Source of the DNA: Halostagnicola sp. A-GB9-2
GTDB lineage: Archaea > Halobacteriota > Halobacteria > Halobacteriales > Natrialbaceae
DNA length: 64,000 bases
NCBI RefSeq assembly: GCF_030068615.1
Contig: NZ_JASJOC010000001.1
Location: forward strand, 372,001 to 436,000
Reading direction: 5' to 3'
This document shows, piece by piece, positions 22,010 to 25,422 of this stretch. The notes under the pieces are model-generated. The model searched no databases. It was not told where the DNA came from and saw only the letters and a program-made list of their open reading frames with translations. Position 1 is the first letter of the stretch. Every line of letters begins with the position of its first letter. Position numbers and translations under genes: made by a program.

Positions 22010-22567
22010 TCAGTCGTTTTTCCGCCCGTTTCCGTTCGCCAGCGCGGTGAGTCGGTCCGCCTCGGGGATGATAATTGATTCGCTCGCGATCCGTGTGGCG
22101 ACAGGGTTGTTCGGCAAACAAAACACGGGGATACGCTCGCTGACACCGGCGAGCGTTCGACTAGCGACGACGCTCGTTCCGATCTCGTCGTAGGAGACGA
22201 GGTGGAATAGATCGACGAACGCAGGTAACTCCTTCTCGAGCAACGGGTCGACGGCCTCGACGGTCACGTCGTCTGGTTCGATGCCGGTCCCGCCGGTGGT
22301 GACGATGATGTCAACGTCGTCACGGTCGAGGAGTCGGGAGATCTTCGACTGGACATTGTCGTGGTCGTTCGCAATGAGTTCCCGCGTAGCGATTTCGTGA
22401 CCGGCGGCCTCGAAAGCGTCAACGATCGCACCGCCGGCCTCGTCTTCTTCGATCGACCCGTTGGAGGTGATCGTCACGACGGCGATACAGAGTTTGGCGC
22501 TCGTGTCGGATTCCTCGAGCGAGGAATCCTTGTCACTCGGTGTCCGCTCGTCGCTTTCTGCAGTCAT
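22010..22567 (-). CDS. moaB: Molybdenum cofactor biosynthesis protein MoaB/MogA type
   Basis: A 185-residue protein from ATG 22567 (MTAESDERTPSDK). The MogA/MoaB fold is clear: IAVVTITSNGSIEEDEAGGAIVDAFEAAGHEI, then VDIIVTTGGTGIEPDDVTVEAV with the TGGTG loop, and the C-terminal VFCLPNNPVATRIA. It should adenylylate molybdopterin on the way to Moco (or tungsten cofactor). A 30-40 residue Ser/Glu-rich N-terminal extension is a halophile feature. It lies about 100 bp downstream of the ABC-exporter operon on the same strand. Confidence 0.9.
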   Translation of the reverse strand: MTAESDERTPSDKDSSLEESDTSAKLCIAVVTITSNGSIEEDEAGGAIVDAFEAAGHEIATRELIANDHDNVQSKISRLLDRDDVDIIVTTGGTGIEPDDVTVEAVDPLLEKELPAFVDLFHLVSYDEIGTSVVASRTLAGVSERIPVFCLPNNPVATRIASESIIIPEADRLTALANGNGRKND

Positions 22568-22672
22568 GGACGCGTGTTCGGCCTCGAAGGGGTAAAACGC
22601 TGTCCCATCGTGGAGAGTCCCAGATGAACGTGTGAATATCGCTTCTCCGGCGAGTTGCAGTACTACCACTCC

Positions 22673-22960
22673 TCACGTATCGAGGCCGTCGATTAAGCTC
22701 TCGAGAGTTTCGACGTGTGCTTCGAACAGTTCGGTTCCGCGATCGGTAAGCCGGTAGGTCGTCTGCGGTTTCCGATCGACGAACTGTTTTTCGACTGCGA
22801 CGCAGTCCTCGTCTTCCATTCGTTCGATGTGACTCGCGAGGTTTCCCTCCGTTATCTCGAGGTCGTCTTTCAGGTCGGTGAAACTCGTCTCTCCGTTCGC
22901 GTAGAGAGATGCGAATATCTGGAGTCGCGTCGGCTGGTGGACGAGTTTGTCGAATTCCAT
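22673..22960 (-). CDS. Winged-helix transcriptional regulator of the ABC operon
   Basis: A 95-residue protein with a winged helix: VHQPTRLQIFASLYANGETSFTDLKDDLEITEGNLASHIERMEDEDCV (HTH with recognition helix around TEGNLASHIERM), wing VAVEKQFVDRKPQTTYRLTDRG and a C-terminal dimerisation helix. It resembles the HTH_34 / ArsR-like one-domain regulators. It is the last gene of the operon permease-ATPase-membrane protein-regulator (3-bp gap), so it likely represses its own operon, plausibly at the twin palindromes at 25388-25422. Confidence 0.88.
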   Translation of the reverse strand: MEFDKLVHQPTRLQIFASLYANGETSFTDLKDDLEITEGNLASHIERMEDEDCVAVEKQFVDRKPQTTYRLTDRGTELFEAHVETLESLIDGLDT

Positions 22961-22963
22961 TGG

Positions 22964-23581
22964 TTAGTAGCGTCGTGAGAGGGTGACGTACGCAACGAGA
23001 CAGTACAGCGCGTAGCCGACACCGAAGACCGCAAACTCCGCGTTCTCGAGTGCCGAGATGTGAGGGATGGCCGCAACTAGCGTGAGAATCCACCCGCCGC
23101 CGACGTAGAAGGCGTACCGATCGACCCGTCTAATGTTGTACGCCTCGAGTAACTGCCCCATGTAGAGATACGCCATCCCCATCAGCGAGCCGACGATGAC
23201 CAACCAGAGTGTGAGAACGTCGCCCTCGAATCCACCCAACAACGGTCTTATGCCGATGATCGCCGCAATCAAGCTGGCGAAGATGATGTAGTGCCAGAAA
23301 TCCCAACTCGGAATGCCGCTCGTGGGCCGGTCGTAGGCTTTCTGGATCCGCCAAAGGACGAACTGGTGACCGAGAAAAACGCCGACGGCCGTCGCAGTGA
23401 GCCACCACGAGAAGCCATCGTTGAGCCCGAGTTGCATGAGCGGAAAGAGCAGCCCGACCCCGATTCCCTCGACGATCCAGAAGCGCCACCAGTAGGGGTA
23501 CGCAGACTGGAGGCCCATGGCCTCCTTGATCTGGCCGATTTCGTCCTGTAGCGTTTCTGGATCAACGTTCTGGTCACTCAT
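22964..23581 (-). CDS. Polytopic membrane protein of the ABC operon
   Basis: A 205-residue protein with about six hydrophobic helices, beginning after an acidic N-terminal segment (DPETLQDEIGQIKEAMG). Helices include FWIVEGIGVGLLFPLMQLGL, WLTATAVGVFLGHQFVLW and AFYVGGGWILTLVAAIPH. No enzyme motif is visible. It sits between the ATPase and the regulator with gaps of 13 and 3 bp, so it is probably an accessory membrane subunit or a sensor for the exporter. Confidence 0.75.
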   Translation of the reverse strand: MSDQNVDPETLQDEIGQIKEAMGLQSAYPYWWRFWIVEGIGVGLLFPLMQLGLNDGFSWWLTATAVGVFLGHQFVLWRIQKAYDRPTSGIPSWDFWHYIIFASLIAAIIGIRPLLGGFEGDVLTLWLVIVGSLMGMAYLYMGQLLEAYNIRRVDRYAFYVGGGWILTLVAAIPHISALENAEFAVFGVGYALYCLVAYVTLSRRY

Positions 23582-23594
23582 ATTCCGTGGTCAC

Positions 23595-24491
23595 TTATTC
23601 GAAGTCGTCGTTATTCGAGGCACTGTTCGTGTAATAGTTAAAGAGGTCGGTGTACGTCGGATCGACGACCTCGAGTGCCTGGTTCGACTCGAGAGCGGCG
23701 TTCGTCTCGGACTCCGGTTGCTGGTCGTCGGCTGGGAGAAAACCGCGAATCGTCCCGTTCCCCTGGAACACCTCGCCGCCGACAACGACGGAAGCGAGTT
23801 GTTCCGAGTTCGAGAGCGTCGTTTCGACGACCTGCGGAACGGAATCGAACAGCGTATCGGGCGTTCCCGTCGTCACCACTCGCCCGTCCGCAACGAACGC
23901 GATTCGGTCCGCGATATCGGCGTCCATTGGTCGGTGACTCGAGACGATGATCGTCTTTCCGTCGGCCTGTTTCTCTCGAATCAGGCCGTGAACGACCTGG
24001 ATCATCGAGAGGTCGAGCGCGGCCGTCGGCTCGTCGAGGAGGTAGATCGGCACGTCGATGCTCAAGGCGATTGCCAACTCGAGTTTCCGGACCATGCCGC
24101 CAGAATAGTCTTCGACCGGCTTCTCGAGATCGGCGTCGATCTCGAGCAGTTCGACGTACTCGCGCCAATCGTCGGTGAAGTTCGGGTGGAGTTGCTCGTA
24201 GAACCGCAGGTTCTCCCGTCCGGTGAGTCGATCGACGCAGAGGGCATCCTGCAACAGGAAACTCGTCGTGTCGGATCGCGCGGTCGGATCCTCGCCGAGT
24301 ACCTCGATACTCCCTGCGGACGGGTGCTGGCTTCCCGCGAGACAGGAAAACAGCACGGACTTGCCGACGCCGTTGGGCCCCAGTACCGCGAGCAGTTCGC
24401 CCGATTCGACGGCGAGATCGACGCCCTCGAGAACGCGCTCGTCACCGAAGGATTTCTCGACACCCTCCGCGAGAACGGACGGCTGGCTCAC
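23595..24491 (-). CDS. ABC-type transporter ATP-binding protein
   Basis: A 298-residue ATPase. Walker A is LGPNGVGKS, the signature region DYSGGMVRKLELAIAL, Walker B IYLLDEPTAALD and the H-loop VSSHRP. The start is taken as the GTG at 24491, where GTGA overlaps the permease stop; in-frame GTGs at 24497 and 24500 are possible. The C-terminal 80 residues (from VVTTGTPDTLFDS) form an extension typical of ABC-2 exporter ATPases. Cargo is unknown; export of a drug, lipid or peptide is possible. Confidence 0.92.
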   Translation of the reverse strand: MSQPSVLAEGVEKSFGDERVLEGVDLAVESGELLAVLGPNGVGKSVLFSCLAGSQHPSAGSIEVLGEDPTARSDTTSFLLQDALCVDRLTGRENLRFYEQLHPNFTDDWREYVELLEIDADLEKPVEDYSGGMVRKLELAIALSIDVPIYLLDEPTAALDLSMIQVVHGLIREKQADGKTIIVSSHRPMDADIADRIAFVADGRVVTTGTPDTLFDSVPQVVETTLSNSEQLASVVVGGEVFQGNGTIRGFLPADDQQPESETNAALESNQALEVVDPTYTDLFNYYTNSASNNDDFE

Positions 24492-25348
24492 GGCCACCAC
24501 CCTCGTTTGTAGAGGACCTTATTGAGGAGAACCGTCCCGACGACGAGCGCAACCGCGGCGTACGCGAAAAGTGCGAGCAGATATTCGGGTCCCGCGGGCA
24601 GTGCCGGCGGAGCCACGCCGATCTCAACCCACTCCTCTCCGGGGACGAGATGGTAGACCATGAGCCGCGTCGGAAGCGTGTTCGGGAGGTAGTTCATCAG
24701 TTCGCCGTCGATCGGGGACATCTCCGCGTTGACACCGTTGAGTCCGGTCAGAACGTACCCGGCGACGGCGATCATGGGAACTGCGTACTCGGCGACGCGT
24801 TCGTTCTTCGCGGCGGCGATAAACGGAAGGGCCACGATCATCCAGAACACGCAGGTGAGCGCGAACGCGCCGAGAACGATCGGTATCGATTCGGGCCCGC
24901 GGAGTCCGAACGAGGCACCCGTGAGGACTCCCGCGGCGAGCGTCAGTCCGAACGCGACTGCGGCGAGACAGAAGCCGGCGAACATTCGCCCGCCGAGATC
25001 CGCGGACGGGGAGATCGGCATGGATCGATAGGCCTCGTACCGACGGTCCTCGAGGTCCGTCGCCAGTTGATAGCCGAACACGTACAGACAGATGTATACC
25101 GCGCCGAAGACGCCCGTGCCGACCGCCCAACTCGCCAGCATCGTTTCCGGAACGTCACCGCCCTGCATGCTAAAGAGCAACTGCATTCCGGGAGCGAGTG
25201 CCACGACCGTTCCGAGCAGTATCCAGCTGTTCAAGACTTCTCGAAGGCTTCGCTCGGAGAACGCTCTCGCTTGCGAGAGCCATCGCCTCGAGCGCGATCC
25301 ATCCGCGAATCCAGGTTCATGTTCGTCGGCTGTCGTCTGTGTTGCCAT
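24488..25348 (-). CDS. ABC-2 type transporter permease
   Basis: A 286-residue membrane protein with about six helices and a cytosolic N-terminus. Examples are WILLGTVVALAPGMQLLFSM, LASWAVGTGVFGAVYICLYVFGYQLA and LLALFAYAAVALVVGTVLL. The segment DLEDRRYEAYRSMPISPSADLGGRM is the cytosolic loop typical of ABC-2 permeases. First gene of the four-gene operon; its promoter region carries two palindromes ending 40-75 bp upstream. Confidence 0.88.
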   Translation of the reverse strand: MATQTTADEHEPGFADGSRSRRWLSQARAFSERSLREVLNSWILLGTVVALAPGMQLLFSMQGGDVPETMLASWAVGTGVFGAVYICLYVFGYQLATDLEDRRYEAYRSMPISPSADLGGRMFAGFCLAAVAFGLTLAAGVLTGASFGLRGPESIPIVLGAFALTCVFWMIVALPFIAAAKNERVAEYAVPMIAVAGYVLTGLNGVNAEMSPIDGELMNYLPNTLPTRLMVYHLVPGEEWVEIGVAPPALPAGPEYLLALFAYAAVALVVGTVLLNKVLYKRGWWP

Positions 25349-25387
25349 TCTCTTTCGTCAGTACTCGACACCCTTACCACACAAAAT

Positions 25388-25422
25388 ACTTTCTACTGCA
25401 AAGTCACTTTGTAGCACAAAGT
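25388..25422 (-). promoter_or_regulatory. Two tandem 17-bp palindromes (ACTTT-N7-AAAGT) before the ABC operon
   Basis: Site 1 (25388-25404) is ACTTT-CTACTGC-AAAGT and site 2 (25406-25422) is ACTTT-GTAGCAC-AAAGT, where the arms extend to ACTTTGT/ACAAAGT. The two sites are separated by a single base, giving an 18-bp period. They lie 40-74 bp upstream of the permease ATG, where the promoter and activator/repressor zone would be. The operon's own winged-helix protein is the obvious candidate ligand. Confidence 0.75.

Follow-up and report, generated by a model that had tools for sequence, protein, structure and literature searches.

Tandem palindromes directly upstream of an operon whose last gene encodes a small winged-helix protein raise the question of whether this protein recognizes the palindromes and thus controls its own expression, and if so, in which direction and in response to which input. 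We addressed this question for an operon in a 64,000-nucleotide stretch of the genome of the haloarchaeon Halostagnicola sp. A-GB9-2 (hereafter, the window) by comparing the operon, its promoter and the encoded proteins across haloarchaea and other classes of the same phylum.

The operon and its products

The operon consists of four genes on the minus strand, denoted P, A, M, and R from first to last (Table 1), with the tandem palindromes ending 39 nt upstream of the P start codon and only 3 nt separating the M stop from the R start. The sequence bears out what an earlier note on this DNA had described, namely, two 17-bp palindromes with an 18-bp period, the perfect 7-bp arms of the distal one, the start of the first gene, and a one-domain winged-helix protein encoded at the end of the operon. 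The same strand continues immediately after R with a gene that by eye appears MoaB/MogA-like (window 22010-22669).

Table 1 Features of the P-A-M-R locus (window coordinates).
Feature	Coordinates	Strand	Description and basis
R	22673..22960	-	95-aa single-domain winged helix (PF13601), last gene; Pfam; nearest solved fold 1ub9 (PH1061)
M	22964..23581	-	205-aa membrane protein without a Pfam family; predicted N-terminal amphipathic helix and six membrane helices
A	23595..24500	-	301-aa ABC ATPase overlapping P; listed start codon GTG; Pfam/NCBIfam scores
P	24488..25348	-	ABC-2-like permease, 286 aa, first gene; ATG at 25348; Pfam match below cut-off
Inferred BRE (AAA) 25390-25392 and TATA-like element 25383-25388	25383..25392	-	Positional conservation, fixed distance from distal site
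Proximal operator	25388..25404	-	ACTTTCTACTGCAAAGT, listed as ACTTTGCAGTAGAAAGT; differs from the ACTTTG-N5-CAAAGT consensus at one position
Distal operator	25406..25422	-	ACTTTGTAGCACAAAGT; minus-strand reading ACTTTGTGCTACAAAGT; 7-bp arms; most conserved site

The designation of the operon as an ABC-2 exporter in the earlier note is reasonable: A is clearly an ABC ATPase (85.8 bits against PF00005, cut-off 25), and the match of P to the ABC-2 permease model PF12679 falls below the Pfam cut-off (20.5 bits, cut-off 27.2). The further suggestion that the exporter responds to drugs found no support; the best drug-exporter model, the DrrA-type ATPase TIGR01188, gives A 131.5 bits, far below its cut-off of 312.45. 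The AlphaFold model of M (pLDDT 84) comprises an N-terminal helix followed by six long helices; no matching fold was detected for it in the PDB, and no Pfam family for the protein.

R is a member of PF13601 (HTH_34; 82.1 bits, gathering cut-off 27) that scores below the cut-offs for PadR (24.2 bits, Pfam cut-off 27) and SdpR (14.8 bits, NCBIfam cut-off 100). Its nearest PDB relative in both sequence and fold is PH1061 (1ub9), on which the R model superposes with a Foldseek TM score of 0.90 and with which it has a GNLxSH recognition helix in common. R lacks an effector domain. Thiol sensing by R was considered and rejected, given that the cysteine of the window protein is missing in many orthologs. 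Of two Halobacterium salinarum proteins considered in connection with R, VNG0194H and VNG1237C, the latter is an Lrp-like (FFRP) regulator, and neither could be linked to R.

A conserved operator at a fixed position in the promoter

Sheer counts of the motif would agree with a chance origin of the palindromes in an AT-rich promoter: ACTTT-N7-AAAGT occurs in four places in the 4.68-Mb genome, two of which are this tandem, and the reversed control pattern occurs in four places as well, so that there is no genome-wide enrichment over the reversed controls, which are equally common or commoner. Because the controls are as frequent as the motif, raw abundance is uninformative, and only position carries information. 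Allowing one mismatch, 16 of the 125 genomes of the family contain the tandem form (2 hits for the reversed control), and 14 of these 16 encompass R, with the tandem located at this operon; R or its paralog is present in 38 of the 125. Similarly, 11 of the 17 perfect single sites are located at this operon. A perfect ACTTTG-N5-CAAAGT is also found elsewhere in the genome to which the window belongs (L004; G000:C36:164242-164258), between two unrelated genes that by eye appear rhodanese-like and methyltransferase-like.

Among the 47 loci compared with the window, P or M could be located in enough to give, counting the window itself, 38 orthologous operons, and the site ACTTTG-N5-CAAAGT, with up to two mismatches, precedes the first gene in 35 of these 38 (11 perfect sites), which, being related, do not represent independent events. 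Only sites with three mismatches were detected in three orthologous operons, and no site within two mismatches in L145 and L172. The sites are retained with P down to 32% and R down to 61% identity. Thus, the conservation of ACTTT-N7-AAAGT upstream of the orthologous operons of Natrialbales, on which the earlier note had staked its proposal, holds for the refined site and extends well beyond Natrialbales, to genomes from other haloarchaeal families, among them Halobacterium salinarum DSM 3754, which has a tandem of one perfect and one near-perfect site.

In the aligned promoters, the sequence flanking the operator shows almost no conservation, whereas the spacer, the positions of which were ignored in the search, is conserved as YRNYR, itself a palindrome. 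The combination of unconserved flanks and a palindromic spacer that was not searched for argues against an alignment artifact. Such conservation at one position across lineages also contradicts the chance origin of the palindromes, which we consider extremely improbable. Counted from where the distal site starts, an A tract at +31 and a TATA-like stretch at +35 to +40 follow at a near-fixed distance and apparently represent the BRE and TATA elements. The 3′ half of the proximal operator overlaps the BRE-like A tract, and this overlap with BRE/TATA was overlooked in the earlier note. Among the 49 dereplicated promoters, 22 contain a second site at 18 bp that overlaps the BRE, whereas the others retain the distal site and, if anything, a degenerate trace of its partner.

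The operator tracks the regulator rather than the exporter

Several rearrangements of the locus separate the operator from the exporter. Halosimplex, in which R is about 79% and A about 31% identical to the window proteins and no P could be detected, nevertheless retains one to three sites. In three genomes that lack both P and A (L063, L065, and L069), the site precedes M-R; in these genomes, the promoter region is common to the M-R operon and a divergent gene for what we take, from its sequence, to be a CPBP-type membrane protease. The gene for a paralog of R (R′; about 37% identity) follows that for a different membrane protein (M′; L095-L102), and in all eight M′-R′ loci examined, a site with up to three mismatches is located 39-40 nt before the start codon. 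In the single-site promoters and in those of M′-R′ alike, the site is positioned immediately upstream of the BRE. At L078, where R alone remains after the apparent loss of P, A, and M, the operator is gone; here, R is located between genes that by eye appear to be flavin-reductase-like and TspO-like. That the operator persists when P and A are absent or have unrelated counterparts, as well as in front of M′-R′, indicates that the site tracks R and not the exporter.

M was found in 39 of the 292 genomes of the class, and R follows M on the same strand in all 30 loci checked. These comparisons identify the M-R gene pair together with its operator, rather than the exporter, as the conserved core, a point missed in the earlier note. 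Profile comparison yields no alignment of M with M′ and no significant match between the M families of different lineages, except for a weak 14-residue N-terminal hit, and none of 20 M proteins matches the Pfam models of SdpI.

Operator and recognition helix covary in other classes

Elsewhere in the phylum, in classes other than that of the haloarchaea, the gene for a PF13601 protein often directly follows one whose product, of about 200 aa, contains four to six hydrophobic segments. Such a membrane neighbor is missing in many further cases, most of which belong to other PF13601 types or are located on short contigs. Three operator types could be distinguished upstream of the membrane protein-regulator pairs. 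Half-sites of the form CTTTG are paired with GNL(A/S)xH helices (GNLSxH/GNLATH); R of the window combines CTTTG with GNLASH, and L208 and L209, with GNLS(A/S)H helices, contain ACTTTGTAGAGCAAAGT and ACTTTGCATCACAAAGT, respectively, upstream of the membrane protein-regulator pair, in each case as a single site abutting a TATA-like stretch. In contrast to the CTTTG of haloarchaeal R, relatives with the PH1061-like helix GNLDSH have CTCTG-N5-CAGAG or a sequence one mismatch away (6 loci). The third type, ACTCTTAAxTTxAGAGT-like palindromes such as ACTCTTAA, is found with the helix GSLSTH (8 loci). In a per-locus shuffle test, the first two types are significant and the third by itself is not, so that the argument for the latter relies on conservation across the eight loci. 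L237 and L238, which contain CTTTA/CTTTG-like sites, are outside the helix comparison.

In our judgment, among the computational evidence available, this covariation makes the strongest case that the site is read by R itself. Another transcription factor could, in principle, bind the palindromes, with R acting elsewhere, and the perfect sites in two genomes without R, both from one genus, fit such a scheme. These sites, which resemble ACTTTGAAAATCAAAGT (G032:C2:581117, C3:354345, and C5:234155; G084:C5:168562), are possibly the target of a different regulator. A different factor at the operon promoter is nevertheless very improbable, considering that the site stays with R where the exporter has been lost or replaced and in the paralogous operon, and that it covaries with the R recognition helix. 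Together, conservation and helix covariation are strong, if computational, evidence for binding of R at 25388-25422, and the two palindromes are very probably docking sites of the operon-encoded R. The operator and autoregulation by the winged-helix protein of the operon, as put forward in the earlier note, are accordingly well supported at the level of sequence, by conservation, co-occurrence, and recognition-helix covariation.

A putative membrane-controlled repression circuit

We propose that R, as a dimer, binds each palindrome in the promoter of its own operon, with the distal site serving as a strong anchor for cooperative binding and the dimer at the proximal site excluding TFB/TBP, so that P-A-M-R would be repressed. 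M would most likely sense a membrane-borne signal and remove R from the DNA, in analogy to the sequestration of SdpR by SdpI, and the release of R would switch the exporter on. Because R lacks an effector domain, M is the natural candidate for the signal input, and we infer that M controls R. Taken as a whole, this scheme, from the binding of R to both palindromes through repression to release by M, appears probable.

The sign of the regulation is the less certain part. In archaea, regulator binding upstream of BRE/TATA is commonly associated with activation, as in the TrmB family (PMC4158304), and in haloarchaea, the GvpE activator site is a UAS next to the BRE (PMC4390858). By analogy, R bound at the distal site could recruit TFB/TBP and repress only when the proximal site is filled as well, which would make it an activator or a dual regulator; the stronger conservation of the distal site and, in promoters with only one site, its constant distance from BRE/TATA speak for this possibility. 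Against it stand the overlap of the proximal site with the BRE in 22 of the 49 promoters, where occupancy would block TFB, the position of the only site next to the TATA-like element in L208 and L209, and the difference of about 7 bp in site-to-TATA spacing between the M-R and M′-R′ promoters. The first two of these observations also favor repression directly. Activation or dual regulation by R is a possibility that we consider rather unlikely, and repression, provided that R binds, is the likelier outcome.

Comparison with known systems places the proposed circuit between several precedents. In Bacillus subtilis, SdpI receives the signal and sequesters the autorepressor SdpR (PMC1626106); the likeness consists in the pairing of a small autoregulator gene with one for a polytopic membrane protein, whereas R scores below the SdpR cut-off, M matches no SdpI model, and in the operons described here, M precedes R, often together with an ABC exporter. 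The GvpE element similarly consists of two parts and directly adjoins the BRE, but GvpE is a leucine-zipper-like protein with a 20-nt element, whereas R is a winged-helix protein the proximal site of which overlaps the BRE. The TrmB family also consists of winged-helix regulators, in which the position of the site relative to BRE/TATA sets the sign of regulation, but R belongs to another family and has no effector domain.

This type of circuit is already known, but neither the family-wide operator nor the M-R module seems to have been described. The open-access literature that we searched yielded no account of the P-A-M-R operon or, although the PF13601 structure 1ub9 has been available since 2004, of a PF13601 operator, which does not prove absence. 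The recurrence of the site, R, and a preceding membrane protein in haloarchaea and related archaea looks like a self-regulating membrane-sensor switch. Whether this switch spans the phylum, as a PF13601 protein with a small six-helix membrane sensor and the operator plan YCTYTG-N5-CARAG or close to it, a module that exporters or other genes have joined and in which the membrane partners have diverged beyond recognition while regulator and operator held, seems to us an evenly balanced question. For the PF13601 family, these observations predict a DNA target together with a specificity code that connects a recognition-helix residue with a half-site base. Even Halobacterium salinarum, a genetically tractable species, encodes the undescribed membrane partner, which makes both the predicted binding and the proposed signaling directly testable.
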